A stretch of DNA of 64,000 bases from the NCBI GenBank assembly GCA_019915015.1, contig JAHBBC010000028.1, forward strand, positions 1 through 64,000, written 5' to 3'. The notes beneath the pieces are model-generated. The model saw nothing but the letters and a program-made list of their open reading frames with translations, did no database searches and was not told the origin of the DNA. Shown here one piece after another: positions 10,730 to 64,000 of the stretch (position 1 is the stretch's first letter; the number at the start of each line of letters is the position of its first letter). Made by a program: the position numbers and the translations under genes. Origin of the DNA: Auriscalpium vulgare. Its lineage: Eukaryota; Basidiomycota; Agaricomycetes; Russulales; Auriscalpiaceae.

Positions 10730-12022
10730 TGACAAGCCCCGTCCCGCGCTGGGAGGGGATCTCGACTGTCTTTTCGCATTTTCGACCAAGTCCTCGGTCA
10801 CGTGACCTCGGCCTTCCTGCGCCACGATCGGAACGCCCCGCCGACTCCCACGCTGCTCGCACCACGCGCCCCCAGTCGCCACACGCTCGCCAGCACAGCA
10901 TTTCCCACGCCCGTCACGACGCATCAGATTTCCATCAGACTCGCACAGCCTGGTCGCACGACAGACACGTTCGGCGCTACGCAACTCCGGAGCTCTCACG
11001 CCATACGAGTACCGCCTCAGTCGCACATTGTCCGTTCGCCCATTGTCCGCCACACGAGTCCGACTACCCCGATGTCCTCCGATTCAACGCTACCGACTCG
11101 CCCGCTTCCCTCCGATGCGCCCTAGCGCCCTACGACTTGCGCTACGCCCTCGCAGTCACGACGCGACTTGCGATCGACACGTGACCCAGTCGCGACGCGC
11201 GTCGGAAGCGTTGCTTTCCGAACGTTCGCAATCGGAAGGCGCATCCTCGTGTCCTCGTCATCGGACCGCCGCTATCGTGCTCGATATGGTGCTCCTTGTC
11301 TATTCCCGCGCTCCCCGACGCTGTTTCCCACAGTCGACGACAGAGCGGATCGTTTCCCGCACCGTTTCCTTTGTCCTTTGACAGCGCTGATCGTTCGCTC
11401 GACATCGTCCCCCGCTCGTTCCTCGTCGTCTGACCGTCGCATGACTCTCGCACATTGTCCGCACCATTTGATACGACGCCGCTATCTTTTCTTTTGTCTT
11501 TCCGATGTTTCCGTACTTATTCGATCGGACACGCACTGTACTCGTCGCAACGTATAAATAGTCGTCGGATACTCTGCGAAATGCAAGTTACGTTCCCCCC
11601 CTCATCGCTCCGAGCACAAGTCGTGCACTCTCGCCCTCGTCGTATCGTATAGCGGTCAATATCGGTTGACTGCTCTCGCGCCTCAGCCTCAGCCATCGCC
11701 TTAGCCTTTGTTCTCGCTTCCCGTCTTATCGCCCTCATCTTGTTCCATCGTTGTTGTCCCTTTGCCCAAGTCCTCGATCGCAGTCGCGTCGCAGCCTTCC
11801 GACGTCGTACGTCGAAGCCTCGCTTTCCGATCGGTCGGAGAGTCGATCGATCGCCTCGTCGCTGCTGCGCTCTCGATCGGATCGCAGTACGATTGATCGG
11901 AGACGGTCGTCGCTTACTCGGGACTCCTGACGCTCGCTCGCACACACACCGACATCTCTGCAGCGCTCTAGGGATTGGTGCTACGTTACGCATTCCGCCC
12001 TACTACCTGGTTGTGTCCATCA
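10730..12022 (+). repeat. 5' LTR of element 1
   Basis: 1293 nt, TG...CA ends (TGACAAGCCCC ... GTGTCCATCA). It matches the 3' LTR at 31835-33129 except for one missing C near 11410 and another near 11930. Open frames inside it are chance frames of a GC-rich, CG-dinucleotide-rich sequence. Confidence 0.93.
11553..11560 (+). promoter_or_regulatory. Candidate TATA box in the 5' LTR
   Basis: TATAAATA, about 460 nt before the LTR end. It is kept in all four family LTRs of this window (also 32659, 52955 and 63687). It fits a U3/R promoter for the genomic transcript. Confidence 0.55.
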
Positions 12023-14771
12023 CTTTTGGAGCCCACCGCGAGGGTTTCAGTCAGGATTCCTCCGAAGCAAGCGCCAGCGCCTTCCCCCTTCTCCAATCGA
12101 CGCCACACCCGTTCCTCCGCTCTCGCCGACGAAGTCCGACAAAGCTTCGTCGTACCCCCACCTGCTATCCCCGGATCCCCCACGCTCGCCGGAGATCTCT
12201 TCGACGAAGTCCCCAGCCCGGACGCGACTCACAATCACCTTCCGAGTACCTCCGAAGCGAGTCGTTCGAGCTACTCGATCACCCACACATCCCAGGCGGG
12301 TTCCGAACACCGTCGCCTGCTCTCACACCTTTGACCCCATCGACTCCTTCACGTCCATCGCACCCTCCGACGCCGATCACTCCACCCTCTCCGACTCCCA
12401 ACGTCGGACCAGTCACAGCTCCGATCACCTTTATCCCCCCTCCCGCAACAACCATAGCTGCCGTACCCCCCGTCGCACCGCTTCCGATGGCTACTCCTAT
12501 GCCCCCCCGCGGTTCGAAGACCGCCCCCGTTTTTGATGAAGAAACCCGCGATCCATCAGGCGATTCTTTTCCGACCTCGAGACGCTTGCGGCGCAGTCTG
12601 GTCTCACCGACCAGCAGAAGAAAGATTGGGTACAACGCTATGTCCCGATCGAGGTCGCCGATTGTTTCGAGGCTCTGCCAGGCTTCGCGGGCACGTACGA
12701 CGTGTTCAAGGCCGAGATCAAGGCACTCTACCCACCCACCGCCGATGAGGATCGCACCTACTCCACTTCCGACCTCGAATCGCTCATCTCCGATACGCGT
12801 CGCACGTACATGGTCACGCTCGACGACTTCGCTGCCTACTACCGATCGTTCATTACGATCTCCGGATTCCTCATCCGGCATCATCGGTACTCCGACATGC
12901 AGCAGAAGAGCGATTTTCCGCGTGGGATCCCCGACTACCTTTGGCCGCGCATCGAGGCGCGACTGCAAGTCAAGAAGCCCGATGTGGTCCCAGGCGACAG
13001 CTACGAGGTCGCCGACGTCAATAGCGCTGCTCGCTTCGCGCTTCAGTCGGTCTCGAGGGACATCCGAGGAGCCACCACCGCTACCTCTACGACTGCTCCG
13101 ACCATCGTCGCAAACCCGCCAGCCCCAGTGCCACAGTCGCAGACCCCTCCGCCCGCAATTAAGGCCGAGGACATCATCGCATCGTTCGTCCGAACGCTGA
13201 TGCAGGGAGGCGCACTCCCAGGCGTGACTCAACAGGCTGCGGCGGCACCAGTCGCAGTCGCAGTTCCGGCAGTCGCAGTCGCCCCAGCGGCTGTCCCCAA
13301 TGCGAACATGCAGCGCCTGGCAGGTCGATGTCTGTACGATGGAGCTTCCGATCATCGCATCTCAGCGTGCCCCGCAGTCGAAGAAGATATTCGGGCAGGC
13401 ATAGTCGCTCGGAACGCGGACGGAAAGGTTACCCTGCCCAACGGTACCTTCGTGCCCAGTCGCATCACAGGCGACTTCCTTCGCGATCGGGTTAGAGAGT
13501 GGTCGTCAGCGCGAGCAGCGGAGCAGCGGGCTGCCGCCCAACTGTTCGTCGGCGTAATCCCGGAGGAGCCCCTCCAAGTCTTCACCCTCTCGACTTCCGA
13601 TCGCATCGCCACGCTCGAAGCGGAGCTCGCACAGCTACGCGGCGAGAGGACTGCCTCGACCAACGCACAAGTCTTTGACGGTGTGGAGATCACGCGTCGC
13701 GCTAAGCCCAAGCAGGCTGCGGCCGCTCCGACGGCTTCCGATCAACCAGCCAAGTCCTCCGATCAGTCGGCGCCCGCACCGGCGCATCCCTTTCGAGGAG
13801 CACGCGATGCGACCGACGCGCCGGTGAAGCCCAAGACAGTGCCAGCCGACCCGCCCAAGGCGACTCGCGAGCCCAACTATCGCAACCTGCCTCCGGTCCA
13901 TCGATCGGAGATCGCAGAGCAAGTCTTCGCTCGCGCTATGAAGGACTCCCAGATCGTCATCACGCCGGAGGAGCTTTTGTCGCTCGCCCCCGAGGTCCGC
14001 GCCAAGTACCGCGACGCAGTCACCCCACGTCGCGCAGTCAACGAGGCAGCAGCCGCACCCGTCGCGACCACGAACTATCATCGCGTCACAGTGGAGGAAG
14101 TCCCCGACGAGGAGCTCGTGTCACCGGCCGCTGCGATAAGGCAGGCTGAGGAGCGCGTCTTCTCCAACTACGCCCCCGATCCCCGAAAGGCCTCCAAGGA
14201 GCAGCTCTGGTCGAACGAATCGAAGGAGTGCGTCCTGTACATGTCCGACCCTATCGAGATGTACCTCAACGATCTCGGCCCCGGCGAGTGCCCCGACCCC
14301 GACATGCTCACAGTCGCTCGCGACTCGCACGCTCTCCGATCGATCGACGGTCTCGTCGCCGGTCGCGCCACGATCGAGTGTCTGCTGGACCCCGGCTCGC
14401 AAGTCATCGCGATGTCCGAGGAGGTCGCCCATTTCCTGGAGCTCGCCTACTCCCCCAACGTCAAGATCCGACTTCAGAGCGCCAATCGACAAGTCTCCAG
14501 TTCGCTGGGCATGGCGCGCAATGTTCCGATCAAGTTCGGGAACATGACCCTCTACCTGCAGGTGCACGTTGTCCGCGACGTCGCCTACGACATTCTCCTC
14601 GGTCGCCCCTTCGACGTGCTCACCGAGAGCATCGTCCGCAACTACCGCGACGAGGATCAGACGGTCACCATCCGCAACCGAACTCCGAACGACGACATCT
14701 TGACGATCCCGACCTTCCCGCGAGGCCATCATCGGTTTCGCAAGGCATGCCATAGCGGCTCCCACCTTTGA
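12023..14771 (+). pseudogene. gag-pro of element 1 (frameshifted)
   Basis: Encodes capsid, zinc knuckle and retropepsin in one frame. Seen: a proline-rich N-terminus; a capsid-like core (RYVPIEVADCFEAL, about 12640); a knuckle-like C-x12-C with a His at the right place but Asp for the second Cys (about 13330); and protease motifs LLDPGSQ (about 14385) and ILLGRPF (about 14590). The first ATG in frame is 12487 (MATPMPP). Compared with element 2 the C run at 12502-12508 has seven bases, keeping frame, but the A run at 12542-12544 has three instead of four, breaking it just after the start. The protein therefore resumes one frame over (from about 12545) and ends at TGA 14769-14771. Otherwise it is almost identical to the element 2 copy. 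Confidence 0.88.
12027..12044 (+). other. Primer binding site of element 1
   Basis: TGGAGCCCACCGCGAGGG starts 4 nt after the LTR. It begins with the TGG expected to pair with a tRNA CCA end. The identical 18-mer at the same spacing follows the 5' LTRs of elements 2 and 3. I cannot name the tRNA. Confidence 0.75.
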
Positions 14772-17036: not shown

Positions 17037-17073
17037 GACCGCGGACGGTCAAGATCTCAGTGAGGAGGAGGAG
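17037..17073 (+). other. Internal (central) PPT-like tract with hairpin, element 1
   Basis: A hairpin GACCG-CGGA-CGGTC (17037-17050), then a spacer ending CTCAGT, then 12 purines GAGGAGGAGGAG (17062-17073). It lies in pol between RNase H and integrase (peptide DGQDLSEEE). It copies the 3' PPT region at 31800-31834. Confidence 0.6.
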
Positions 17074-17275
17074 CCCGAGCTATCGTACGACGAAGTCCCA
17101 CGCAGCGACGCAGCGATCAAAGCCGACGAGCGACTAGTCCATGTTCGCGAATGGTTAGAAGATCCCGTGCGACCAGATCACCTTTCCGACCAAGAATTTG
17201 CGACTTTCGTCCGATACGCCCTCCGATTCTTCAGCACCGGCAATCGACTCTATCGACGCTCAGGAGATGGCGCGC

Positions 17276-20192: not shown

Positions 20193-20227
20193 TCTCCTCC
20201 TCACTGAAGTCTTGACCGTCCTCGGTC
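20193..20227 (-). other. 3' polypurine tract and hairpin, element 3
   Basis: On the minus strand: hairpin GACCG-AGGA-CGGTC (20227-20214), spacer ending CAGT, then GAGGAGGAGA (20202-20193) directly against the 3' LTR. This is the plus-strand priming site. The same arrangement is repeated inside pol at 21943-21909. Confidence 0.75.
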
Positions 20228-20457
20228 ATTGCGTATGCCGTTGGCGAGTGCGTCCTAGATCTCGGGGAAGTGTGGCGATGAAACGGAGCAAAAAGGGAAG
20301 GCATAGGAGAAGTAATCACATAGGTAAAATGTCCCTTCTTGGTCTCTGGAATAGTGAGATGAACAAAATGAACTGGGAAAAGGGTGAAACAGATAGAGGG
20401 AAATAAAGGGAAGTCATTGGCAAACGAAAGGGTATCCTGGCGATGTTTGACTGGTGC

Positions 20458-26758: not shown

Positions 26759-26761
26759 AAA

Positions 26762-28356
26762 TGATGACCAAACTCGTCGGACAGGCGGTCAGATGACAAA
26801 ACCAAACCCTGCTCGTCGAGTAGTACTGTTTTAGTTGGGGGGCGTGTCCCAGGTCTACCAGAGGGCTCGGAGAGTCGCAGCTGTCACTGGGGAAGTGTAG
26901 CGAGCGACGGGGGATGAGGGGGAGTGTCGGCGAAGGTGTGGGCGGCAATACAAGGCTTGGGGTGGCGTAGCGAGAGTTGGGGAGGTAGGGCGAAGGTCGG
27001 GGACGGTAGGCGACGCTGGGCGACGATGGGCGACGATAGGGCGAAGGTTCTCAATATGCAAGTGCGTAAACGATGCGCTGCGAAGGTGAATGCAATGTCG
27101 ATGTCGATAAAAGGGCTAAACGATGCGCTGCGAAGATGAAAGACGATAGTTCTCGAGGTTTGAGGTGCTGTCTCTGGGGGGAGAAGTTCCTATCGCATGC
27201 AAACACTGCTAGCTACACTTATACATGGGAAAATGCGTCGGAGTAGCTACACGAGTCATGCGATGCAGTCAGCGAAGCCGTGCGAAGCATCGGCGAATTA
27301 TAGCGAATGAGAGAGAAGAGATATCAAAGGCCTAGACACAAAAGCCTCCGGGACACTCGGGGCGCATCAGCGACGCGTCAAAAGTGGTCGTTGATCCGGG
27401 TCACTGATGGCTCGGGCTTGGGCACTGTCTCCTACGTTGCTGAGTGATATCTCGATGTTCAGCGAGTCACTGTATCGTTGGCGAGTTGCTGAGAGACCCT
27501 AGACATGTAGCTGAGCTCGCTGAACATAGGCGAACGTCGGTGAACGGCTGCGACATGAGGGGACAGTATCGCGACGGTCTAGGCGCAACTATGATGCTAT
27601 CTTCGGCGAAACCTCCGGGATGCTCGGGATGCAACAGCAATGCATCAGAAGTGGTTGATGATCCGGTCCGCTGATGTCTCGGGCTCGGGGATCGTCTCCG
27701 ATGTCGCTGGGCAATAGCTCGATGGTCTGCGAGTCTGCGCTGCATCTCTGAGTCGCTGGGAGGTCGGGCATGTGCAGCTGTGTCCGCTGAGTACAGGCGA
27801 GCGCCGGCGAACGACTGCGACGACGTGGACGGGGTTGCTATCTCATGGCTCTGGCTTCGGTGATGTGGGCTAATTGATGTGAGACATGGCCAAGATCCGA
27901 CGGACTATGCAGTTGATGGATTGCTCTAGATGCTCGGACGAGTCGGGCACCTCGGCGATGACGTGGCTGGCTCAGGCGAACGATGCAAACGTGTAGCGAT
28001 GCTCGGGCGAAGCAGCGATGTCGAGTGCGAGTGTGCACGAGCTGTGTATGCACGCCTGAACGTATAGCGAGTCGGTGCGACCTTGGGAGAACATTGTCTG
28101 ACTGCTGATGAGTGACTAGGGTGCAGGGGACGTGGCGTGACTTCGGCGACTGTCGTAGGATGATGTGCGAGTGAGAGCGAGCGTCGGCGAACTGCAGCGA
28201 ACGATTGCGCGGACAGCTACAGAGCTAGCTGTTGTGCGAGTGTTTCGGCGAGAACGATAGAGTCGGGGATGCATGGCAACGGTCGGAGCCACTGTGCGAG
28301 TGCCACAGTGCATCGAAAATGCGCAAACAGTAGCCACACGCGTAGCAGGCGTATCA
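26762..28356 (-). repeat. 5' LTR of element 3
   Basis: 1595 nt. Same ends as the copy at 18581-20192, lacking 19 nt of it and differing by four one-base indels (near 27110, 27160, 27260 and 27950). Confidence 0.92.
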
Positions 28357-28982
28357 GCGCATGGGCTGCTCCCCATACTTCGCTGTCACCGGATGTCACC
28401 CGATCATTCCCCTCGACATCTCGGAAGCGACGTACCTCCAGCCCCCTCCCGAATCTCTTCTCTCGACCACAGACCTCATCGCACGACGGGCAATCGCACT
28501 GCAGAAACGACATGATCAAGTCTCCGCTCTCCGATCGGACGTATACGCTGAGCGACTCGCGAACGTTAGGAAGTTCGAGAAGGAACATTCGCACGTCATC
28601 AAGAACTTCGACTTCAAGCGAGGCGCTCTTGTACTCATCAGACACACTGCGATCGAGAAGTCACTCAATCGGAAGATGCGCCCGCGCTACCTAGGGCCCC
28701 TAGTCGTCGTCTCCCGCAATCGGGGAGGAGCATACATCGTCGCGGAGCTTGACGGCTCTGTACTCGACCGTCCGATCGCCGCATTTCGAGTCATCCCCTA
28801 CTTCGCTCGCAAGGAGATTCCCTTCCACCTGTCCGACGTCGACATCGACACTCATCGACTACGCGAGTTAGAAGCCTCGACGCAGCATGGCAACGACGAC
28901 GGCGAAGAGCCACCCCTTCCCGACGCACCCGACGACGAAGACGAAGTCACCGACCAAGGGTAGAGAGTTCCGATCGCATCAT

Positions 28983-29002
28983 CCCCCCCCCCCCCCCCCC
29001 CC
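28983..29002 (+). repeat. C20 homopolymer after pol of element 1
   Basis: Twenty consecutive C where element 2 has only CCCTCC (about 59941). It lies in the gap between the convergent pol and accessory genes. It is probably replication slippage after insertion; the length may be unreliable in the assembly. Confidence 0.85.
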
Positions 29003-29319
29003 GACATTCCTTTCCTTTTCCATCCCCATCACCAAGTCGCTCGCGTCGTATCGCTGTAGCGCAGGCCCATTCAAGATAAAGGGCCTTAGCCTATGAAGGA
29101 TTACTGAGGCTTAAACAAAAGTCATTAGTTCGACTTAGTCGGACGCCCACATTCTTTTATCATCAATTAGTCGGAGTCAAGTCGCAATTCCCACGAGTTC
29201 ATCCAGACAGTCGGAGCAGACAAGAAAGTCGTATTCAATTCAAGTCGCAAGTCAACAAGAACGAGTCGCGCTACAAATACAGGGTATCTACAAAGTCGCC
29301 TCACATCCCCGACCGTCGC

Positions 29320-31345
29320 CTACTCCTCGAACACCTCGTACCACTCGTCCTCCTCGCGCATAATCCTCGGCACCTGCCCCGCCTCGTACGCCCTCCAGAG
29401 GGGCGCGTTGATCAACCGGACGTCGCGCCACCAGCCGTCGATGAACGAGTCGCGGAGTGCGAACATGTTGGCGAGTTCCTCCGATCGCGTCTTGCGCACC
29501 TCCTTGACGATGAGCGTGATGCCCCCCGGAGTCCTGGCGCCCGAGATCGTCTCGATCGGCCCAGCGACGAGGTCTTGAAGAGAGGCGAATGAAGGGAACG
29601 CGATGAAGTCGCGTGGACGGGGACCGGGAGGTAGGATGTGTCGTCGGCGCGCCTTGCCTTTGCCCTTGCCCTTGCTGGCGGTCGGACGTGCGGTAGCCGG
29701 TGCGGAGGGACCTAGTCAAGAGTCAACGCAGCTCCCCCAGAGTCGAAAGCATTACTCACCGGCGACGGGTTCTTCGGGGCCCGCGAACACGTCAACAGAG
29801 GGCGTGCGCCACTCCGCGGCTTCCTGCGCCCACGATCCTGCGCGTTCCGATCCTGAGCGCGGCGCGTCAGTCGTCGCATCGGGACTCGTCAAGAAGAGCG
29901 GACTGCTCTCACCTGGCACCGTCCGTTGCGTCTGCGACTCGGGCAGCGCGGCTTGCGGCGCGTCTTGGACAGGCTGCGATTTGCCGGCTTCTTGCGTAGA
30001 GTCGACGTCCATGTTGACCGGCGCGGGAACGGTCGGAGCCGCAGGAGGCGGCGGTCTGCCTACGAACTGGCGCGGCGCGACTAAAAGGGATTCAAAACGG
30101 AGTCAGCAAGTGAATCGGAAGACGCACAAGACACTTACCTTGGGCCAACGCCCTCGTCTCTTGGCGCGGCGTCTTGTGCGCCATCTTCGGAGCCTTGAAC
30201 GATGGATCGTCGCGATCGGGAGACGACTCAGCCGGTCGCTTCTGACCCACTGCTGGATCGGCAGGCGCGGCAGCCTCTGCCGCGGCCGCGGCCTCTCGCT
30301 GAGTGCGCGACAAGACTAGGCAAAAGAGTTAGCAAGCGACGAAGATCGGACGATAAAGCGACTTACCTTGTACGTTTCCCTCGTCCCATCGGCACCCTTT
30401 CTTCGCCTCCCGGCACTTCTCGCACTCCACGGTCCACCCCGACGGCTTGAGGGTCGCTCTGTAGCGACAGTCGATGCGCCCGTCCGAGCCCGTCTTCGCG
30501 CAGTAATCGCAGGCCTACGGAGTGATCAGCGCGCGATAGGAGAAGACCAGCGATCGCGACTTACCGGAGTACCCCTGAAGTTAAACTCCCCGCGCTCGAT
30601 GCGAAGCACGAGGTCGTTGGCGCGCGCCTTCTCGAATCGGAGGCGGATCGCCAAAGTCGCGTCCGACTCGCCTCTGCGCTTCCGAGCGGAGACCTGTTCC
30701 CCAGCGTCTTGAGAGCCGTCGTCCAGCTCATCGCGGTTGTCTTCGTCGCGATCTCCCGCCACAGGAGGCTCCGTCGCGGGAACCTCCGCGACCTCGATCG
30801 GCGCCAAAGACATAGCGCGGTCGGCAGTCGGCTGCGCAGGTGGAGGAACAGGGAGTGGCGTCGGCGATGGAGAAGCGACGGAGGCGGCCGGCGCGTCGTC
30901 ATCACTAGCGAGGAGGCGATCGAAGAACGTGTCCTCATCCTCCTGGGCAAACAAACGCAGTCAGTGAGTGGTCGACAACGAACGGGCGCGGACGTACCTC
31001 CGATTCTTCCCCCGACTCGAACTCTTCCTCCGGGCACAACCAGTGCGGGGCGAGGGCGGTCCACTCAGGCGTGCCGTGTGTCCGGAAGATCGCCTGGAAC
31101 TTGTTGAGGACTGGGAGGATGCGCGGCTCGGCGTTCGGATATTCATAGCCGATGTTCTATGGATCGCACGTCAGTTGATTGGTCAAGAGCGGAGTCGGAC
31201 GTAGACTTACCAAAGCTTTCGCCATCCGACGAGCCCATTCGAGTTGCGCAGCCGGAGTCGCATCTTCGGACCACTTGGTGAACTGTCGCTCGACTTGACG
31301 GACGACGCTGTCGTCAGAGAGGCGGCGAGGAGTAGGAGTGGACAT
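29320..31345 (-). CDS. Antisense accessory gene of element 1 (six-Cys cluster protein, seven exons)
   Basis: Function unknown. Predicted 569 aa from exons 31345-31211, 31156-30998, 30942-30565, 30514-30367, 30315-30139, 30080-29760 and 29711-29320; all introns are GT-AG, 48-58 nt. It starts MSTPTPRRLSDDSV. Exon 3 is Pro/acid-rich. Exon 4 carries a cluster C-x2-C-x10-C-x14-C-x2-C-x6-C (residues 226-265); its last half (CEKCREAKKGC) looks like half of a Zn2Cys6 DNA-binding cluster. Then come basic, NLS-like stretches, a GKGKGKGK block and a conserved C-terminus (FPSFASLQDLVAGP, SFIDGWWRDVRLINAP). It lies tail-to-tail with pol, with a TATA-like CTTAAAAGG 63 nt before the ATG. The same gene with the same intron phases sits in element 2. 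A nuclear, nucleic-acid-binding role is inference only. Confidence 0.85.
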
Positions 31346-31407
31346 GTTTCAACGAGCGCCAGATGAAGGGACGTGGAGAGTTGCCTCCGACTAGCGATCG
31401 CATACCG

Positions 31408-31416
31408 CCTTTTAAG
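31408..31416 (-). promoter_or_regulatory. Candidate TATA box of the accessory gene, element 1
   Basis: CTTAAAAGG on the minus strand, 63 nt from the ATG at 31345. The element 2 counterpart (62391) is 64 nt from its ATG. Conserved placement supports a promoter internal to the element and facing away from the 3' LTR. Confidence 0.45.
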
Positions 31417-31799
31417 CGATTCGGCCCTCCTCAAGGCGCGCACGCCAATCGATCGACTTCGACGTATTTTCGATCGCTCCCTAGCGTGCCCACTATTGTC
31501 CGACTACGGCCCAGCCTCGACTCCGATCGCCTTTGGCATCCAGGTATACTGTTCAAGAAGCATGACGCGCCGCGCCTAGCCCATGACATCACCACGGCGC
31601 CTACGTCTTCATCCAGTATAGACGCTTCCTTCGACGACCCTCTACGCTCACACGATCGCCCCCGACTTTCGAATTACTCGCCGACTTTGCCCGCCGCAGT
31701 CTTCCGATTCCGACCGACGCAGCTATTCGCCTCCGATGTCCCCGCCGTTCGATTCCCCTTCCGACCATTGCCCGCATACCCCTAGCGTCTCGTCGCACT

Positions 31800-31834
31800 G
31801 ACCGGGGACGGTCAGGTTCTCAGTGAGGAGGAGG
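31800..31834 (+). other. 3' polypurine tract and hairpin, element 1
   Basis: Hairpin GACCG-GGGA-CGGTC (31800-31813), spacer ending CTCAGT, then GAGGAGGAGG (31825-31834) abutting the 3' LTR. It is the expected plus-strand primer and resembles the internal tract at 17037-17073. Confidence 0.75.
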
Positions 31835-33129
31835 TGACAAGCCCCGTCCCGCGCTGGGAGGGGATCTCGACTGTCTTTTCGCATTTTCGACCAAGTCCTC
31901 GGTCACGTGACCTCGGCCTTCCTGCGCCACGATCGGAACGCCCCGCCGACTCCCACGCTGCTCGCACCACGCGCCCCCAGTCGCCACACGCTCGCCAGCA
32001 CAGCATTTCCCACGCCCGTCACGACGCATCAGATTTCCATCAGACTCGCACAGCCTGGTCGCACGACAGACACGTTCGGCGCTACGCAACTCCGGAGCTC
32101 TCACGCCATACGAGTACCGCCTCAGTCGCACATTGTCCGTTCGCCCATTGTCCGCCACACGAGTCCGACTACCCCGATGTCCTCCGATTCAACGCTACCG
32201 ACTCGCCCGCTTCCCTCCGATGCGCCCTAGCGCCCTACGACTTGCGCTACGCCCTCGCAGTCACGACGCGACTTGCGATCGACACGTGACCCAGTCGCGA
32301 CGCGCGTCGGAAGCGTTGCTTTCCGAACGTTCGCAATCGGAAGGCGCATCCTCGTGTCCTCGTCATCGGACCGCCGCTATCGTGCTCGATATGGTGCTCC
32401 TTGTCTATTCCCGCGCTCCCCGACGCTGTTTCCCACAGTCGACGACAGAGCGGATCGTTTCCCGCACCGTTTCCTTTGTCCTTTGACAGCGCTGATCGTT
32501 CGCTCGACATCGTCCCCCGCCTCGTTCCTCGTCGTCTGACCGTCGCATGACTCTCGCACATTGTCCGCACCATTTGATACGACGCCGCTATCTTTTCTTT
32601 TGTCTTTCCGATGTTTCCGTACTTATTCGATCGGACACGCACTGTACTCGTCGCAACGTATAAATAGTCGTCGGATACTCTGCGAAATGCAAGTTACGTT
32701 CCCCCCCTCATCGCTCCGAGCACAAGTCGTGCACTCTCGCCCTCGTCGTATCGTATAGCGGTCAATATCGGTTGACTGCTCTCGCGCCTCAGCCTCAGCC
32801 ATCGCCTTAGCCTTTGTTCTCGCTTCCCGTCTTATCGCCCTCATCTTGTTCCATCGTTGTTGTCCCTTTGCCCAAGTCCTCGATCGCAGTCGCGTCGCAG
32901 CCTTCCGACGTCGTACGTCGAAGCCTCGCTTTCCGATCGGTCGGAGAGTCGATCGATCGCCTCGTCGCTGCTGCGCTCTCGATCGGATCGCAGTACGATT
33001 GATCGGAGACGGTCGTCGCTTACTCCGGGACTCCTGACGCTCGCTCGCACACACACCGACATCTCTGCAGCGCTCTAGGGATTGGTGCTACGTTACGCAT
33101 TCCGCCCTACTACCTGGTTGTGTCCATCA
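31835..33129 (+). repeat. 3' LTR of element 1
   Basis: 1295 nt, TGACAAG...CCATCA, followed by the CCGC duplication and the other half of the split GGTTC element. Confidence 0.93.
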
Positions 33130-33258
33130 CCGCTGAACCGTGAACTGGACCGCTGGTTCAGGTTCAGCTCAACCTTGAACCTGAACCGGACCAAGCCCCG
33201 AACCGAACCTGGTTCAGGTTCGAACCATGGTTCAGAACCGAACCGCGGCAGCACTATG
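33130..33258. repeat. GGTTC-rich element copy B, right part
   Basis: GAACC/GGTTC pentamers ending GAACCGCGGCAGCACTA, the inverted form of the start of copy A (8998). With 10664-10729 it makes an element of roughly 190 nt. Confidence 0.7.
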
Positions 33259-52127: not shown

Positions 52128-53424
52128 TGACAAGCCCCGTCCCGCGCTGGGAGGGGATCTCGACTGTCTTTTCGCATTTTCGACCAAGTCCTCGGTCACG
52201 TGACCTCGGCCTTCCTGCGCCACGATCGGAACGCCCCGCCGACTCCCACGCTGCTCGCACCACGCGCCCCCAGTCGCCACACGCTCGCCAGCACAGCATT
52301 TCCCACGCCCGTCACGACGCATCAGATTTCCATCAGACTCGCACAGCCTGGTCGCACGACAGCCACGCTCGGCGCTACGCAGCTCCGGAGCTCTCACGCC
52401 ATCCGAGTACCGCCTCAGTCGCTCATTGTCCGCTTGCCCATTGTCCGCCACACGAGTCCGACTACCCCGACGTCCTCCGATTCAGTGCTACCAACTCGCC
52501 CGCTTCCCTCCGATGCGCCCTAGCGCCTTACGACCCGCGCTACGCCCCCGCAGTCACGACGCGACTTGCGATCGACACATGACCCAGTCGCGACCGCGTC
52601 GAGAGTGGTGCACTTCGCACGTTCGCAATCGGAAAGGCGCAGCCTCGTGCCCACATCATCGGACCACCGCTATCGCGCTCGATATGGCGCGCATTGTCCG
52701 TTCCCGCGCTCCCCGACGCTGTTTCCCACAGTCGACGACAGAGAGGATCGTTTCCCGCGCCGCCTCCTTTGTCCTTTGACAGCGCTGATCGCTCGCTCGA
52801 CACCGTTCCCCGCCTCGCTCCTCGTCGTCTGACCGGCGCATGACCTCTACTCATTGTTCGTATTATTTCATATGACGCCGCTATCTTGTTTTCTTTGTCT
52901 TTTCCGATGTCTCCGTACTTACTCGATCGGACACGCACTGTACTCGTCGCAACGTATAAATAGTCGTCGGATACTCTGCGAAATGCAAGTTACGTTCCCC
53001 CCTCATCGCTCCGAGCACAAGTCGTGCACTCTCGCCCTCGTCGTATCGTATAGCGGTCAACATCGGTTGACTGCTCTCGCGCCTCAGCCTCAGCCATCGC
53101 CTTAGCCTTTGTTCTCGCTTCCCGTCTTATCGCCCTCATCTTGTTCCATCGTTGTTGCCCCTTTGCCCGAGTCCTCGATCGCAGTCGCGTCGCAGCCTTC
53201 CGACGTCGTACGTCGAAGCCTCGCTTTCCGATCGGTCGGAGAGTCGATCGATCTCCTCGTCGCTGCTGCGCTCTCGATCGGATCGCTGTACGATTGATCG
53301 GAGACGGTCGTCGCTTACTCCGGGACTCCTGACGCTCGCTCGCACACACACCGACATCTCTGCAGCGCTCTAGGGATTGGTGCTACGTTACGCATTCCGC
53401 CCTACTACCTGGTTGTGTCCATCA
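52128..53424 (+). repeat. 5' LTR of element 2
   Basis: 1297 nt, TGACAAG...CCATCA. By eye about 95-97% like the LTRs of element 1 and identical to the visible part of its own 3' LTR. Confidence 0.93.
52955..52962 (+). promoter_or_regulatory. Candidate TATA box, element 2 LTR
   Basis: TATAAATA in the same context as in element 1 (GCAACGTATAAATAGTCG). Confidence 0.55.
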
Positions 53425-56171
53425 CTTTTGGAGCCCACCGCGAGGGTTTCAGTCAGGATTCCTCCGAAGCAAGCGCCAGCGCCTTCCCCCTTCTCCAATC
53501 GACGCCACACCCGTTCCTCCGCTCTCGCCGACGAAGTCCGACAAAGCTTCGTCGTACCCCCACCTGCTATCCCCGGATCCCCCACGCTCGTCGGAGATCT
53601 CTTCGACGAAGTCCCCAGCCCGGACGCGACTCACAATCACCTTCCGAGTACCTCCGGAAGCGAGTCGTTCGAGCTACTCGATCACCCACACATCCCAGGC
53701 GGCTTCCGAACACCGTCGCCTGCTCTCACACCTTTAACCCCATCGACTCCTTCACGTCCATCGCACCCTCCGACTCCGATCACTCCACCCTCTCCGACTC
53801 CCAACGTCGGACCAGTCACAGCACCGATCACCTTTATCCCCCCTCCCGCAACAACCATAGCTGCCGTACCACCCGTCGCACCGCTTCCGATGGCTACTCC
53901 TATGCCCCCCGCGGTTCGAAGACCGCCCCCGTTTTTGATGAAGAAAACCCGCGATCCATCAGGCGATTCTTTTCCGACCTCGAGACGCTTGCGGCGCAGT
54001 CTGGTCTCACCGACCAGCAGAAGAAAGATTGGGTACAACGCTATGTCCCGATCGAGGTCGCCGATTGTTTCGAGGCTCTGCCAGGCTTCGCAGGCACGTA
54101 CGACGTGTTCAAGGCCGAGATCAAGGCACTCTACCCCACCGCCGATGAGGATCGCACCTACTCCACTTCCGACCTCGAATCGCTCATCTCCGACACGCGT
54201 CGCACGTACATGGTCACGCTCGACGACTTTGCTGCCTACTACCGATCGTTCATTACGATCTCCGGATTCCTCATCCGGCATCATCGGTACTCCGACATGC
54301 AGCAGAAGAGCGACTTTCCGCGTGGGATCCCCGATTACCTTTGGCCGCGCATCGAGGCGCGACTGCAAGTCAAGAAGCCCGATGTGGTCCCAGGCGACAG
54401 CTACGAGGTCGCCGACGTCAATAGCGCTGCTCGCTTCGCGCTTCAGTCGGTCTCGAGGGACATCCGAGGAGCCACCACCGCTACCTCTACGACTGCTCCG
54501 ACCATCGTCGCAAACCCGCCAGCCCCAGTTCCACAGTCGCAGACCCCTCCGCCCGCAATTAAGGCCGAGGACATCATCGCATCGTTCGTCCGAACACTGA
54601 TGCAGGGAGGCGCACTCCCAGGCGTGACTCAACAGGCTGCGGCGGCACCAGTCGCAGTCGCAGTTCCGGCAGTCGCAGTCGCCCCAGCGGCTGTCCCCAA
54701 CGCGAACATGCAGCGCCTGGCAGGTCGATGCCTGTACGATGGTGCTTCCGATCATCGCATCTCAGCGTGCCCCGCAGTCGAAGAAGATATTCGGGCAGGC
54801 ATAGTCGCTCGGAACGCGGACGGAAAGGTTACCTTGCCCAACGGTACCTTCGTGCCCAGTCGCATCACAGGCGACTTCCTTCGCGATCGGGTTAGAGAGT
54901 GGCATCGTCGCAAGGCAGCGGAGCAGCCAGGGGCTGCCGCACAACTGTTCGTCGGCGTAATCCCGGAGGAGCCCCTCCAAGTCTTCACCCTCTCGACTTC
55001 CGATCGCATCGCCACGCTTGAAGCGGAGCTCGCACAGCTGCGCGGCGAACGGACTGCCTCGACCAACGCGCAAGTCTTTGACGGTGTGGAGATCACGCGT
55101 CGCGCTAAGCCCAAGCAGGCTGCGGCCGCTCCGACGGCTTCCGATCAGCCAGCCAAGTCCTCCGATCAGTCGGCGCCCGCACCGGCGCATCCCTTTCGAG
55201 GTGCACGCGATGCGACCGATGCGCCGGTGAAGCCCAAGACAGTGCCAGCCGATCCTCCCAAGGCGGTTCGCGAGCCCAATTATCGCAACTTGCCCCCGGT
55301 CCACCGATCGGAGATCGCAGAGCAAGTTTTCGCTCGCGCTATGAAGGACTCCCAGATCGTCATCACGCCGGAGGAGCTTTTGTCGCTCGCTCCCGAAGTC
55401 CGCGCCAAGTACCGCGACGCAGTCACCCCACGTCGCGCAGTCAACGAGGCAGCAGCAGCACCCGTCGCGACCACGAACTATCATCGCGTCACAGTGGAGG
55501 AAGTCCCCGACGAGGAGCTCGTGTCACCGGCCGCTGCGATAAGGCAGGCTGAGGAGCGCGTCTTCTCCAACTACGCCCCCGATCCCCGAAAGGCCTCCAA
55601 GGAGCAGCTCTGGTCGAACGAATCGAAGGAGTGCGTCCTGTACATGTCCGACCCGATCGAGATGTACCTCAACGATCTCGGCCCCGGCGAGTGCCCCGAC
55701 CCCGACATGCTCACAGTCGCTCGCGACTCGCACGCTCTCCGATCGATCGACGGTCTCGTCGCCGGTCGCGCCACGATCGAGTGTCTGCTGGACCCCGGCT
55801 CGCAAGTCATCGCGATGTCCGAGGAGGTCGCCCATTTCCTGGAGCTCGCCTACTCCCCCAACGTCAAGATCCGACTTCAGAGCGCCAATCGACAAGTCTC
55901 CAGTTCGCTGGGCATGGCGCGCAACGTTCCGATCAAGTTTGGGAACATGACTCTCTACCTGCAGGTGCACGTTGTCCGTGACGTCGCCTATGACATTCTC
56001 CTCGGTCGCCCCTTCGACGTGCTCACCGAGAGCATCGTCCGCAACTACCGCGACGAGGATCAGACGGTTACCATCCGCAACCCGAACTCCGACGACATCT
56101 TGACGATCCCGACCTTCCCGCGAGGCCATCATCGGTTTCGCAAGGCATGCCATAGCGGCTCCCACCTTTGA
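53425..56171 (+). CDS. Gag-protease of element 2 (single C-run frameshift)
   Basis: Capsid-like domain (NPRSIRRFFSDLETLAAQSG; RYVPIEVADCFEAL), a degenerate knuckle (CLYDGASDHRISAC, Asp for the second Cys), a Pro/Ala linker, then retropepsin with LLDPGSQ and ILLGRPF. It ends with CTT TGA at 56166-56171, pol following in +1. The first ATG (53890, MATP) is followed by a run of six C (53905-53910). Element 1 has seven here, and with six the ATG-initiated frame leaves the capsid frame. Upstream of the ATG the frame stays open back into the LTR and is conserved as protein with element 3 (DEVRQSFVV, GDLFDEVPSPDATHN). Start codon therefore unclear. Protease Asp lies in D-P-G-S rather than D-S/T-G. 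Confidence 0.88.
53429..53446 (+). other. Primer binding site of element 2
   Basis: TGGAGCCCACCGCGAGGG, 4 nt after the LTR, identical in elements 1 and 3. Confidence 0.75.
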
Positions 56172-56172
56172 T
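56166..56172 (+). promoter_or_regulatory. Candidate +1 frameshift site CTT-TGA-T
   Basis: Gag-pro stops at TGA directly after CTT, and the pol frame is open from about 56105 in +1. CUU UGA is the slippery codon plus stop used by bacterial release-factor-2 mRNA; slipping to UUU would keep pairing. Element 1 has the same site at 14766-14771; element 3 has GCT TGA at 24115-24110. Confidence 0.5.
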
Positions 56173-59100
56173 GATCTAGGTGAAGATGAAGCCATCGCCA
56201 TGATCATCGAAGGCGATGGCGAAGACGCGCGCATCATTGCATATACCCCAATCGACGCCTCCGACGACTCCGCGATTCAAGCTGCCTACGTTACCGCCTC
56301 CGAAGCCCGCACGCATTTGCCAGAGTACGCAGCCCCGTCTTTCTTGAACAAAATATGTCCCGCAGAGCCTTGTAAATCACGTACGACTCCCGAATCAAAT
56401 CTTGGTCACCAGTATATGTCGTCCGATCGCAAACCATCTCCGACTCAGAAACCGCGCTATCGACACCCACATCTTGACGACGACACTCAGCAATATCTTG
56501 GACATTCCCCGCGACCACCTACCACTTTCTTGAACTCGTCCACATCGTCGCCTTCGCCTTCCGATCCCGAACCAGTCGACATCTTTCTTGGCAAGAAGAA
56601 GTACAAGCCCGTCGCAGACAAAGTCCGACCCGTTCTTGGCACACTTCCTGACGGGTTTCGCATCGAGCGCAACATCATCGGAGACCCCCTCGCATCCATG
56701 CCACCATTATCGACGCATCCCCCGCCCTTCGTTCCCACCGGTCGATACACCCAAGAACGTCACGACAAGATGGACGCGAACCCCAGCTACGAATTCCTCA
56801 CCCCGACCGAGCGCGATCTCTTGCACGACATCATCGTAAAGCAGAACGAGGCCTTCGCATGGGACGACACCGAACGCGGCAGCTTCAATCCCGAATACTT
56901 CCCTCCGATCCAGATTCCCGTCGTCGCACACGTCCCATGGGTCGATCGCAACATCCCCATACCCCCGGGCATCTACAACGACGTCTGCGCCATGATCAAA
57001 CGGAAGATCGCGGCAGGTGTCTACGAGCCCTCGAACTCTTCCTATCGATCGAAGTGGTTCTGCGTCGCAAAGAAGGATGGCAAGAGTCTACGTATAGTCC
57101 ACTCGCTCGAGCCACTCAACGCTGTCACGGTCGCACACTCCGGCGTCCCTCCAATCCAAGAACAACTTGCGGAACAGTTCGGAGGACGTGCCTGTGGTGG
57201 CATTCTCGACCTCTACGTCGGATACGACGAGCGACTCATCGACCCCCGATCCCGCGACTTCACGACCTTCCAGACGCCTTACGGAGCACTTCGTCTAGTC
57301 ACCCTTCCGATGGGGTGGACGAACTCGGTCCCCATATTCCACGACGACGTCACGTTCATTTTGCAGGATGAGATCCCGACCTTCACAGTGCCCTTCATCG
57401 ACGATGTTCCCCTCAAAGGCCCCAAGTCCGACTATCGACTTTCCGATGGATCTTACGAGATGATCCCGGAAAACAAGGACATTCGTCGCTTCGTCTGGGA
57501 GCACCTCACCAACGTCAATCGGATCCTCCAGCGCATGCGCTACTCCGGCGGTACCTTCTCCGGTCCCAAGTCGATCCTCATCGCTCGCGAATTCACCGTC
57601 CTCCGCCACCTCTGCACTCCGGAAGGTCGCCGCGCTGATCCGACCACAATCTCAGCCATCACGAACTGGGGTCCTCTCAAGGATCTCTCCGACGTTCGCG
57701 CTTTCCTTGGCACAGTCGGAGTCTGCAGGATATTCATCAAGGACTTCGCGAAGCATGCGTGGCCTCTCACCAAGCTCACACGGAAGGGTACGGAGTGGGA
57801 GTACGGTCCCGATCAGCACAGGGCGCAAGAGTACCTCAAAAACGCGCTGGTCAAGTTGGACGCCCTTCGAGCGATCGATTACGAGTCGCAAGCACCAGTC
57901 GTCCTCGCAGTTGACACATCCTACATCGCAGTCGGCTACATTCTCGCCCAAGAGGAACTGAACAACCCGAAGAAGCGTTACTACAGCCGTTTTGGATCGA
58001 TATCGCTCAACGATCGCGAACGACGCTTCTCCCAGCCCAAGCTCGAGATCTATGGACTCTTCCGATCGCTTCGCGCCCTTCGCATGTACCTCATAGGACT
58101 ACGGAACTTCATCGTCGAAGTCGATGCCAGCTCGATCGGAGGAATGCTCAAGAACCCCGATTTGGTCCCGACGGCTAGCATCAATCGCTGGATCATCGGC
58201 ATCCTCGTCTTCAAGTTCCTCCTTCGACACGTCCCAGGCATCGCACATGGTCCCGACGGACTGTCGCGTCGCGTCCGACAGCCAGGCGATCCAGAGGAAC
58301 CCCCCGACGAAGACTACGACGATTGGCTCGACAACCTGTACGGATTTTTGTTCGCGGTCCCCACGCATAGCTCCACAGTCAAACCCGACCAAGCTCCCTC
58401 CCTCCCCGCCCCAGGACTCAACGCTGTGTTCGCATTGACCGCGGACGGTCAAGATCTCAGTGAGGAGGAGGAGCCCGAGCTATCGTACGATGAAGTCCCA
58501 CGCAGCGATGCAGCGATCAAAGCCGACGAGCGACTAGTCCATGTTCGCGAATGGTTAGAAGATCCCGTGCGACCAGATCACCTTTCCGACCAAGAATTTG
58601 CGACTTTCGTCCGATACGCCCTTCGATTCTTCAGCACCGGCAATCGACTCTATCGACGCTCAGGAGATGGCGCGCACAAGCTCATCCCCCACCCAAAGCG
58701 CCGTATTCAAGTCCTAGTCGACTGCCACGACAAAGTCGGACATCGCGGAGTCTTTGCGACTCGATCCCTAGTCGGAGAACGCTTCTGGTGGCCGTCCTAT
58801 GAATCGGACGTTATGTGGTATGTTCGCACATGCCACCTATGTCAACAACGCCAGAAGCGACAGATCCTCATCCCTCCGACCGTCGCAACTCCCGCTCCCT
58901 TGTTCGCAAAGATCTACGTCGACACGCTGCACATGCCCGTCTCAGGAGGATACCGCTATATCGTCCAAGGTCGCTGCTCACTTACGACCTACCCGGAGTT
59001 CTCCCTACTCAAGAAGGAGAACTCCGTCGCGATCGCGGACTGGATCTTCCAAAGCATCCTCTGTCGCTGGGGTTCCCTGTCGGAGGTCGTCACTGACAAT

Positions 59101-59922
59101 GGCGGTCCTTTTGTCAAAGCCCTGGTTCATCTTGAGAAGAAATACCACATACGCCACATTCGCATCTCAGGCTACAACTCTCGTGCTAACGGAATCGTCG
59201 AACGTGCTCATTATGACGTTCGGCAAGCACTCTACAAGGCCGCGAATGGTGACCAGACCCAGTGGGCGCGCTGCGCTTTCTCGGTGTTCTGGTCGGAACG
59301 TATCACGGTTCGGAAGCGCATGGGCTGCTCCCCATACTTCGCTGTCACCGGATGTCACCCGATCATTCCCCTCGACATCTCTGAAGCGACGTACCTCCAG
59401 CCCCCTCCCGAATCTCTTCTCTCGACCACAGACCTCATCGCGCGACGGGCAATCGCACTGCAGAAACGACATGATCAAGTCTCCGCTCTCCGATCGGACG
59501 TATACGCTGAGCGACTCGCGAACGCTAGGAAGTTCGAGAAGGAACATTCGCACGTTATCAAGAACTTCGACTTCAAGCGAGGCGCTCTAGTACTCATCCG
59601 ACACACTGCGATCGAGAAGTCACTCAATCGGAAGATGCGCCCGCGCTACCTAGGACCCCTAGTCGTCGTCTCCCGCAATCGGGGAGGAGCATACATCGTC
59701 GCGGAGCTGGACGGCTCTGTACTCGACCGTCCGATCGCCGCATTTCGAGTCATCCCCTACTTCGCTCGCAAGGAGATTCCCTTCCACTTGTCCGACGTCG
59801 ACATAGACACTCATCGACTACGCGAGTTAGAAGCCTCGACGCAACATGGCAACGATGACGGCGAAGAGCCACCCCTTCTCGACGCACCCGACGACGAAGA
59901 CGAAGTCCCCGACCAAGTGTAG
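56172..59922 (+). CDS. Pol polyprotein of element 2: RT, RNase H, integrase
   Basis: Open for 1250 codons after the gag-pro stop (first ATG 56200, 1240 codons from there) and intact. RT: FAWDDTERGSF, SKWFCVAKKDGKSLRIVHSL, LPMGWTNSVPIFHDDV, catalytic FIDD at 57394-57405. RNase H: VLAVDTSYIAVGY, SQPKLEIYGLF, VEVDASS, HGPDGLSR. Then an internal PPT-like tract (58437-58473). Integrase: H-x4-H-x29-C-x2-C from about 58720, catalytic Asp in KIYVDTLH, Asp in VTDNGG and Glu in GIVERAH (34 residues between the last two by my count), and a C-terminal GPF/Y-like module (RYLGPLVVVSRN...AELDG) without chromodomain. The acidic tail ends 336 nt before the convergent accessory gene. Expressed from the gag mRNA by +1 frameshift, by inference. 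Confidence 0.96.
58437..58473 (+). other. Internal (central) PPT-like tract with hairpin, element 2
   Basis: Hairpin GACCG-CGGA-CGGTC (58437-58450), spacer, 12 purines (58462-58473). Over 40 nt it matches the 3' PPT region (62822-62859) at 36 positions. Confidence 0.6.
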
Positions 59923-60258: not shown

Positions 60259-62327
60259 CTACTCCTCGAACACCTCGTACCACTCGTCTTCCTCGCGCAA
60301 GATCCTCGGCACCTGCCCCGCCGCGTACGCCCTCCAGAGTGGCGCGTTGATCAATCGAACGTCGCGCCACCAGCCGTCGATGAACGAGTCGCGGAGGGCG
60401 AACATCTGGGCGAGTTCATCCGAGCGCGACTTGCGCACCTCCTTGACGATGAGCTTGATGCCCCCCGGAGTTCTGGCGCCCGAGACCGTCTCGATCGGCC
60501 CAGCGACGAGGTCTTGAAGAGAGGCGAAAGAAGGGAACGCGACGAAGTCGCGTGGACGTGGACCGGGAGGGAGAATGTGTTGACGGAGCGCCTTGCCCTT
60601 GCCCTTGCCCTTGCTGGCGGTCGGACGCGCGGTCGCTGGTTGCGACGGACCTAAGAAAACGGTTAGCGTAGCCTCGATCAAAGTACAAGACGGGACTCAC
60701 CTGCGACCGGCTCCTCCTCTGCCTCGAACACGTCGACCGGCGGCGTTTGCCACTCCGCGACCTCTTGCACCCACGAGCCTGCGCGTTCCGATCCTGAGCG
60801 CGGCACGTCAGTCGTCGCCTCGGGACTCGCCAAGAAGAGCTGGCCGCTCGTACCTGGCACCGTCCGTTGCGTTTGCGACTCTGGCGGCACGTCTTGACGC
60901 GCTCCTTCGACTTGATGCGACGGTCCGGCCTCTTGAGTCACGTCGACGTCCATGTTGGCTAGAGCGGGGACGGCGGCGGCGACAGGCGGCGGAGGCTTGC
61001 CGACAAAGGAACGTGGAGGACCTAAGAAGGGATCAACAACGAAGTCAGTAACGATCGGAGGACGTCACAGGAAGTACTCACCTTGTGCCGACGCCCGTGT
61101 CTCCTTGCGCGCGGTCTCATGTGCCCTCTTCGGAGCCTTGAAAGCAGGGCCGGAGTCTTCTCGATCGGGAGTTGCTGACGCGACCCGCTTGTGGCCTGCG
61201 ACTGGTGCAACCGCCTCTGTCTTGTGTTCGGCCGCTGCGGACGCCTTGCGAGCAAGCATAATCGCTACGATCATAGGTCAACAGCTGCGACAAGAGGAAA
61301 GAGAAGGAGACGTACCGCGTGCTTCTGCTTCGCTCCACCGACACCCCTTCTTCGCCTTTCGACACTTCTCGCACTCCACGAACCATCCCGACGGCTTGAG
61401 GGTCGCCTTGTACCGGCAATCAATCCCGCCGTCCGACCCAGTGCTCGCACAGTAGTCGCAAGCCTATCAAAGAGTCAGCACACGATCGGAACGACCAGGC
61501 GATCAAGACGTACCGCGGTCCCCTTGTAGTTGAACTCCCCGAGTTGAATGCGGGTTACGAGGGCGTCGGCGCGTGCCTTCGCGAACTGCAGCCGGGTGCT
61601 GAGCTGCTTGTCCGACTCGCCTTTGTGCCGGCGAACTACGACGGCCCCCGCAACTTGAGGCGCGACCTCGACGATCTCGTCGTCCTCCGACCTGTGTACC
61701 TCGCCGTCTTCCGACGACTCTGTCTCCGGGACCTCCTCGACCGCGATCGGAGCCAGTGACACTGCACGAGCAGGAGTCGGCTGGTAGGGTGGAGGGACCG
61801 AGCGGCGAGGCTGGACAGGGAGAGGTGCGGGCGAAGGAGCGGCAGACGGCTGCGCAGGAGCAAGCGGTGCGACGAACGCGTCCGGCGCGGCGTCGCTGGC
61901 GAGCATCTGCTGGAAGTACTCGTCATCGTCTACCTGGAGGAAGAAGTCAGTCGCAAAAGCATCAATCAAGAAACAAGGGCGTACCTCAGACTCTACGGCC
62001 AGCTCCGACGCGTCGTAGAGAGCTTCCCGGGCCAGCGCCTTCCACTCAGGACGGCCGTGCGCCCGGTAGATCGCGCGGAAATCCACGATGATTTCTGCGA
62101 GTCGCGCCTCGACGTTCGGATAGGCGTGGCCGAAAGCCTGACGAAAAGTGGATCAGTCGCAATGTCGCGCAGAAGATCGCAAGGTTACTCACAATTGCCT
62201 TGGCCATGTTGCGCACCCATTGGAGTTGTTCGGCGGCGCTTGCGTCGGCCGACCACTGATTGAAGACGCGTTCGAGTTGGCGAACAACGCTATCGTCGGA
62301 GAGTCGGCGAGGAGTAGGGGCGGACAT
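60259..62327 (-). CDS. Antisense accessory gene of element 2 (six-Cys cluster protein, seven exons)
   Basis: Predicted 583 aa from exons 62327-62193, 62137-61985, 61933-61514, 61463-61316, 61264-61082, 61021-60701 and 60650-60259; introns are GT-AG, 50-60 nt. Exon lengths against element 1 are 135/135, 153/159, 420/378, 148/148, 183/177, 321/321 and 392/392: every difference is a multiple of three and all phases match. The Cys cluster C-x2-C-x10-C-x14-C-x2-C-x6-C is kept, although four of six Cys codons differ synonymously (TGC/TGT). By-eye protein identity with the element 1 copy is about 71% in exon 1, 80% in exon 4 and 92% in exon 7. Function unknown; nuclear DNA-binding, regulatory or host-interaction roles are guesses. 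The six-Cys motif only partly fits Zn2Cys6, because its spacing is longer. Confidence 0.87.
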
Positions 62328-62390: not shown

Positions 62391-62400
62391 CCTTTTATGC
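62391..62400 (-). promoter_or_regulatory. Candidate TATA box of the accessory gene, element 2
   Basis: GCATAAAAGG on the minus strand, 64 nt before the ATG at 62327, matching the placement in element 1 although the surrounding sequence has diverged. Confidence 0.5.
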
Positions 62401-62859: not shown

Positions 62860-64000
62860 TGACAAGCCCCGTCCCGCGCTGGGAGGGGATCTCGACTGTC
62901 TTTTCGCATTTTCGACCAAGTCCTCGGTCACGTGACCTCGGCCTTCCTGCGCCACGATCGGAACGCCCCGCCGACTCCCACGCTGCTCGCACCACGCGCC
63001 CCCAGTCGCCACACGCTCGCCAGCACAGCATTTCCCACGCCCGTCACGACGCATCAGATTTCCATCAGACTCGCACAGCCTGGTCGCACGACAGCCACGC
63101 TCGGCGCTACGCAGCTCCGGAGCTCTCACGCCATCCGAGTACCGCCTCAGTCGCTCATTGTCCGCTTGCCCATTGTCCGCCACACGAGTCCGACTACCCC
63201 GACGTCCTCCGATTCAGTGCTACCAACTCGCCCGCTTCCCTCCGATGCGCCCTAGCGCCTTACGACCCGCGCTACGCCCCCGCAGTCACGACGCGACTTG
63301 CGATCGACACATGACCCAGTCGCGACCGCGTCGAGAGTGGTGCACTTCGCACGTTCGCAATCGGAAAGGCGCAGCCTCGTGCCCACATCATCGGACCACC
63401 GCTATCGCGCTCGATATGGCGCGCATTGTCCGTTCCCGCGCTCCCCGACGCTGTTTCCCACAGTCGACGACAGAGAGGATCGTTTCCCGCGCCGCCTCCT
63501 TTGTCCTTTGACAGCGCTGATCGCTCGCTCGACACCGTTCCCCGCCTCGCTCCTCGTCGTCTGACCGGCGCATGACCTCTACTCATTGTTCGTATTATTT
63601 CATATGACGCCGCTATCTTGTTTTCTTTGTCTTTTCCGATGTCTCCGTACTTACTCGATCGGACACGCACTGTACTCGTCGCAACGTATAAATAGTCGTC
63701 GGATACTCTGCGAAATGCAAGTTACGTTCCCCCCTCATCGCTCCGAGCACAAGTCGTGCACTCTCGCCCTCGTCGTATCGTATAGCGGTCAACATCGGTT
63801 GACTGCTCTCGCGCCTCAGCCTCAGCCATCGCCTTAGCCTTTGTTCTCGCTTCCCGTCTTATCGCCCTCATCTTGTTCCATCGTTGTTGCCCCTTTGCCC
63901 GAGTCCTCGATCGCAGTCGCGTCGCAGCCTTCCGACGTCGTACGTCGAAGCCTCGCTTTCCGATCGGTCGGAGAGTCGATCGATCTCCTCGTCGCTGCTG
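62860..64000 (+). repeat. 3' LTR of element 2, truncated by window end
   Basis: First 1141 of about 1297 nt. Matches the 5' LTR of the same element without visible difference; TATAAATA at 63687-63694. Confidence 0.92.

Follow-up and report, generated by a model that had tools for sequence, protein, structure and literature searches.

An antisense gene exchanged as an allelic cassette among Ty3-type LTR elements of a basidiomycete genome

The elements and their antisense gene

What is a gene with six introns doing inside a retrotransposon, on the strand opposite to gag and pol? The window, by which we mean the whole stretch of 64,000 nucleotides analysed here, holds two long LTR elements of the same family, both on the plus strand. 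The 5' LTR of element 1 (10730..12023, +) is 99.85% identical to its 3' LTR (31835..33130, +), as found by comparing the pair. The 5' LTR of element 2 (52128..53425, +) is 100% identical to 62860-64157, which is its 3' LTR; the part within the window is 62860..64000 (+), and the repeat continues past the window end to 64157. Element 2 has a gag-protease frame (53298..56171, +) with an aspartyl protease domain (PF13650, E 1.3e-7) and a pol frame (56104..59922, +) with RT RNase H (PF17917) and integrase H2C2 (PF17921) domains. In the 1272-aa pol frame the Pfam profiles place RNase H at residues 569-698 and integrase H2C2 at 864-919, so RT-RNase H lies ahead of integrase, which is the Ty3-type order. 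The Pfam profiles for the RT and the integrase core gave no score on this frame. Element 1 is split by a reversed, related LTR element at about 18581-28250. This nested element has direct repeats at 18581-20084 and 26762-28248 and a gag-protease frame at 24113-26788.

A 42-nt hairpin with a polypurine motif precedes the 3' LTR in both elements (31793-31834 in element 1, 62819-62859 in element 2). The motif is found again inside pol, where it is about 90% identical, and also in the nested element, with further positions at 58430-58471, 17031-17071 and 20184-20234 (-). By its sequence, the one inside pol may be a central polypurine tract. In 4 of 4 copies tried the hairpin folds, little better than shuffled sequences do (z -0.7 to -1.8).

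The gene lies between pol and the 3' LTR. We rebuilt both models from splice sites. In element 1, which carries a class A allele, the gene occupies 29320..31345 (-) and is one open frame of 569 aa with exons at 31345-31211, 31156-30998, 30942-30565, 30514-30367, 30315-30139, 30080-29760 and 29711-29320. Its exons measure 135/159/378/148/177/321/392 nt and its introns 54/55/50/51/58/48 nt. In element 2, which carries a class B allele, the gene occupies 60259..62327 (-) and is one open frame of 583 aa with exons at 62327-62193, 62137-61985, 61933-61514, 61463-61316, 61264-61082, 61021-60701 and 60650-60259. Here the exons measure 135/153/420/148/183/321/392 nt and the introns 55/51/50/51/60/50 nt. 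All 12 introns have GT-AG borders. The first-pass annotation had described a seven-exon antisense gene in both elements, with exons that differ by 6, 42 and 6 nt and with six cysteines common to the two proteins, and the rebuilt models agree with it on each of these points. It had also placed a TATA-like box 63-64 nt from the ATG. The box begins 71-72 nt before the ATG and hence ends about 63 nt away, as described. It reads TTAAAAG or ATAAAAG and is present in 24 of 25 gene copies (L055 lacks it), including those of element 1 (31408..31416, -) and element 2 (62391..62399, -). Such conservation suggests that the antisense gene has its own promoter.

A 60-nt stretch of exon 6, 29853..29912 (-), may be an optional intron. 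The stretch has a GTGAGA donor, a CTGAC branch-like site and a CAG acceptor, its length is a multiple of 3, and its GT and AG ends are present in 24 of 24 copies. It is missing from both of the homologous protein models discussed below (P0001 and P0002). The peptide LFL.SP that it encodes is also kept in the gene of a sister element family, which argues for the stretch as coding. Nearby, the 57 nt at 29882-29938 are 84% identical between the two element families and are the gene's best DNA match, for proteins that are only about 30% alike. This match is a candidate for constraint at the nucleotide level or for a short linear motif, SQTQ.T.PG.

Copies were sought in the 51.6-Mb genome with the gene of element 1 as query, and 40 of the 45 candidates were scored. 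The gene had been noted in two copies; there are instead at least 26 loci, of which 24 are full length, one is interrupted by an insertion (L010/L057) and one is partial, with the 3' part only (L056). Complete pol matches, taken from the 40 of 101 candidates that were scored and paired with genes by position, number 25. The gene is close by in 24 of them (22 full length, 1 interrupted, 1 partial), and at the other, C4:431550, no antisense gene was found in the 4.6 kb read.

All seven exons are open in 21 of the 24 full-length copies. The broken copies have frame shifts (L013 and L055) or one stop (L019), and the open copy L012 has AT in place of GT at the first intron donor. Across the open copies the exon lengths vary by threes only. 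In five of the six introns there are also length differences of one base or of other numbers not divisible by three (e.g. 54/55/56 or 48/49/50), and intron 3 has either 50 or 51 nt. A chance open frame was considered and rejected because of the open copies and the exon lengths.

The ratio dN/dS was estimated without the broken L013, L019 and L055, and L010 and L056 were left out of the codon work. The median NG86 omega is 0.086 within A (9 open copies, 36 pairs), 0.198 within B (12 open copies, including two of sub-class C; 66 pairs) and 0.311 between A and B (108 pairs). By exon, the A-B omega is 0.14 in exon 1, 0.12 in exon 4 with its cysteines, 0.16 in exon 7 and 0.77 in exon 2. The last value means that some parts of the protein are loosely constrained, and the median is below 1 in every exon. 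Substitutions between A copies fall 12/11/77% on codon positions 1/2/3, and the introns diverge by 10% within A, 16% within B and 38% between A and B. The earlier claim that the protein is under selection therefore stands: median dN/dS is 0.09-0.31, far from the value near 1 that had been named beforehand as grounds for abandoning it. Intact frames, dN/dS well below 1 and presence in 24 of 25 complete pol-bearing elements together support a spliced, protein-coding antisense gene of the element family. It has the properties of an aORF-3R, since it lies between pol and the 3' LTR, is antisense to gag-pol, occurs in most copies of the family and is conserved like the other element proteins. On the sequence evidence, then, the antisense gene is a real, old and selected gene of the element.

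Gene and promoter as an allelic cassette

The first-pass annotation recognised the gene, but it missed that the gene has diverged far beyond the element that carries it (62% versus about 97-98% identity). Identity between elements 1 and 2 is 97.35% over 10725-17275, 99.7% over 17933-18580 and 62% in the antisense gene. Fixed differences between classes A and B delimit a cassette at 29620..31793 that begins inside exon 7 and covers exons 6-1 and the promoter side. Its right end, 31793, is the start of the polypurine hairpin before the LTR. In bins 29600-31799 there are fixed A-B differences at 449 of 2179 sites. Outside there are 2 of 1187 in 28400-29599 and 0 of 400 in 31800-32199, for a total of 2 of 1587. 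The bin counts use all 13 B copies with a per-bin identity filter and leave out the C copies L011 and L012, and the first and last fixed positions were taken from B without L018, L052 and L055, again with L011 and L012 left out. Thirteen positions in a poly-C run at 28990-29002 were taken for an alignment artefact and were not counted as cassette differences.

Over 84 pairs the A-B dS is 0.72 for the gene, against 0.059 for pol; the pol comparison leaves out L005 (899 bases), L009 and L055 (no complete pol). Single pairs make the same comparison. Between L006 (A) and L014 (B), 3 of 900 sites differ in pol and 567 of 2001 in the gene; between L007 and L008 it is 24 of 900 in pol and 4 of 2025 in the gene. 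Over 21 copies, distance in pol does not correlate with distance in the gene (r 0.05, p 0.27). Distances in two parts of the gene agree closely (r 0.94), partly owing to the deep A-B split itself, and those in the two halves of the pol stretch barely agree (r 0.15, p 0.16), which means that the backbone recombines freely. The allele classes are A and B, the latter with a sub-class C (L011 and L012). They are not two haplotypes, since A and B occur on the same contigs (C2, C5, C12 and C28). LTR pairs are 99.85-100% identical in 6 of 6 elements examined, so elements with A and with B are both young. These comparisons of aligned copies show that gene and promoter have been exchanged as an allelic cassette between near-identical backbones.

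At LTR positions 440-800 (11169-11527, 32274-32633 and 52568-52927) at least two types of sequence occur, shuffled among elements. A strict pairing of cassette class with this segment was tried and rejected (Mantel r 0.15, p 0.09, 11 elements). Of the elements with A, 2 of 10 have LTR type 1, and of those with B or C, 10 of 15, a weak association (Fisher p 0.04) in which the row for L011 is uncertain, its assigned LTRs lying 60 kb apart. The physical closeness of LTR and cassette could be its cause.

Relatives and the protein

A second element family, with a pol 77% identical, has a homologous gene in the same place and on the same strand. One copy was read (L101). Only models with six introns and certain anchor peptides were accepted for it, 24 candidates in all, of which the longest has 546 aa. 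Its intron phases, 0,0,0,1,1,1, are those of element 1 and are common to the ten stored models. The sister gene is 23-33% identical by part and has the same six-Cys spacing plus one extra Cys. Its 14 full-length copies out of 14 are 95-100% alike and form one allele class only. This uniformity argues against deep alleles as a general feature of the antisense gene, and also against local hypermutation.

The homologues found are two Auriscalpium vulgare (Russulales) proteins, P0001 and P0002, on contigs of 3.5 and 2.8 kb that are too short for element context. The best exon match of P0002 to the window's genome is 62-63%. The N-terminal half of P0001 recurs as a large internal repeat, either genuine or an error of assembly or annotation. 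We take P0001 and P0002 as coming from a species other than that of the window's genome, and all that is said here of a second species rests on this. It had been stated in advance that a single captured host gene would count against a gene of the element; the sister family and the second species, which both have the gene, contradict such a capture.

Trees were built from 14 of the 21 open copies, P0001, P0002 and the sister gene. The N-terminal part of P0001 is 80% identical to class B and joins B with support 95, its place inside B being unsettled in the tree, and A and B are 55% identical there. For the C-terminal part, identity is 89% between P0001 and P0002 (support 100), 92% between A and B, and 62-67% between the species. 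N-terminal alleles thus appear to cross species while C-terminal parts follow species, with P0001 and P0002 taken as above. The alleles that cross could be old and shared or could have been transferred horizontally, and two sequences from one species fit both.

Exon 4 (30367..30514, -, in element 1; 61316..61463, -, in element 2) holds a six-Cys cluster, C-x2-C-x10-C-x14-C-x2-C-x6-C in element 1. The Cys columns are invariant in 5 sequences. All six are kept in 18 of 21 open copies, and one is lost in 3 of 21. The second gap is x10 in elements 1 and 2 and in the sister gene, and x12 in P0002. The first half of the fungal Zn2Cys6 cluster (PF00172) is C-x2-C-x6-C. The antisense protein resembles this cluster in having six Cys with a second half of C-x2-C-x6-C, but its first half has x10 (x12 in P0002) rather than x6, and the PF00172 profile gave no row at E up to 1 or 10. 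The product as a whole found no Pfam match, and there was no Pfam row for PF04195 (the Transposase 28 domain of Retand TRP28). AlphaFold models have a mean pLDDT of 47.4 and 46.1, with only the helical N-terminal domain confident, and structure searches returned common helical arrangements only. Basic patches are visible in the protein sequence. The six-Cys module and the basic stretches suggest a zinc-binding nuclear protein, a suggestion drawn from the residues and not from a family or a fold.

What the antisense gene may do

We lean towards the view that this is an accessory gene of a Ty3-type lineage, carried as an exchanged cassette, that codes for a nuclear regulator of its own element. 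The gene would be read from its own promoter, opposite to gag-pol, and then spliced. The genomic RNA would carry the introns reversed, and they would stay unspliced through retrotransposition. It is reasonable to suppose that this orientation is why the introns survive, and it fits with their being kept in all copies. The product may be a regulatory protein of the nucleus that consists of a helical N-terminal domain, a disordered linker rich in acidic residues and proline, the putative zinc-binding six-Cys module and a C-terminal domain that is basic and helical. It might act on the element's transcription or on particle assembly. A cassette that comprises the gene and its promoter would circulate within one genome in two diverged classes (A, and B with C). 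It could move between backbones by template switching between co-packaged RNAs, a known exchange route of LTR elements. A cassette that moved in this way would leave the backbones about 98% alike and would itself keep old alleles.

Regulation of the own element is our best guess by analogy with plant antisense proteins (PMC7264820, PMC11963269) and with Ty1 (PMC7055915, PMC12530519). The antisense genes known from plant LTR elements share with ours the position, the orientation, presence in most copies, an own promoter in Grande and a suggested nuclear or DNA-binding role (PMC7264820, PMC11963269). In contrast, the fungal gene has six conserved introns and divergent alleles on near-identical backbones, and its protein is unrelated to theirs as far as the absent Pfam match shows. 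An antisense additional gene in a fungal LTR element is already in print as well: brtn of the Boty-like elements of Botrytis cinerea (Zhao et al. 2011, as cited in PMC7264820 and PMC8365987). Its host is an ascomycete, however, and the likeness drawn here is one of position and orientation. The novelty claimed by the first-pass annotation therefore has to be narrowed. Neither an intron-rich or basidiomycete antisense gene of an LTR element nor an accessory gene swapped as an allelic cassette was found in the literature searched, with subscription journals mostly outside it. HBZ of HTLV-1 is a spliced antisense nuclear regulator of a retroelement (in part PMC11963269). Judged by the TATA-like box, the promoter here is instead upstream of the gene and outside the LTR. 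In Ty1 the segment that moved between subfamilies, by transfer and recombination, is a divergent gag with copy number control (PMC7055915), and that control is subfamily-specific (PMC12530519). Both cases have a divergent segment that moved into otherwise similar elements, with consequences for self-regulation in Ty1. The Ty1 segment is gag, the source of p22/p18, whereas here it is a separate antisense gene whose self-regulation is supposed by analogy.

One can imagine that recombination with a divergent element, acquired by hybridisation or horizontal transfer, left the A-B split behind as a neutral relic. The gene would then be an ordinary accessory regulator whose alleles are not maintained. 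Recombination alone yields a divergent block within a uniform backbone, the Ty1 gag case was such a transfer (PMC7055915), and the sister family has a single allele class only. However, B-like and other alleles coexist among the A. vulgare proteins too, and both classes are intact, constrained and recently mobile. We consider this scenario possible but unlikely. A little less likely still is that the gene is an allele-specific self-recognition locus. Each class would restrain its own class, so that a rare class escapes restraint and spreads, and frequency-dependent selection would keep alleles older than the host species.

It is doubtful that the protein is a counter-defence factor that would inhibit a silencing pathway of the host and diversify through an arms race with it. 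The N-terminal part does change rapidly (A-B identity 55%, against 92% in the C-terminal part), and the A-B omega of exon 2 is 0.77. No exon has a median omega that reaches 1, though, and the intron divergence (0.38 between A and B) matches the age of the split, so age and not positive selection explains the difference. A captured host gene with a host function, riding as a passenger, was considered and rejected as very improbable. Its intron-rich structure does resemble a nuclear gene, but no stand-alone copy is among the at least 26 loci, the sister family has it in antisense as well, and its only two homologues are unplaced A. vulgare proteins on short contigs. We also reject, as scarcely credible, the idea that the antisense RNA alone matters through double-stranded RNA control and that the frame is incidental. 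Antisense transcripts can regulate retroelements (PMC7264820), but selection acts on frame, splice sites and amino acids here, and dN/dS contradicts the idea. Local hypermutation would suit a divergent block limited to the gene, but it is rejected with near certainty since near-identical gene copies sit on backbones with 1.8-2.7% pol differences and the sister gene is uniform.

For decades LTR elements have been known to carry antisense accessory genes to which no function was assigned. In this genome one of them can be studied through its evolution: two allele classes, both intact, sit on near-identical, recently mobile backbones and amount to a natural swap experiment. If the alleles act class-specifically, this would be a retroelement with a balanced polymorphism, following a logic like that of Ty1 copy number control with a dedicated gene. 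The case also shows that a retroelement can carry a gene with many introns over a long time if that gene is antisense.
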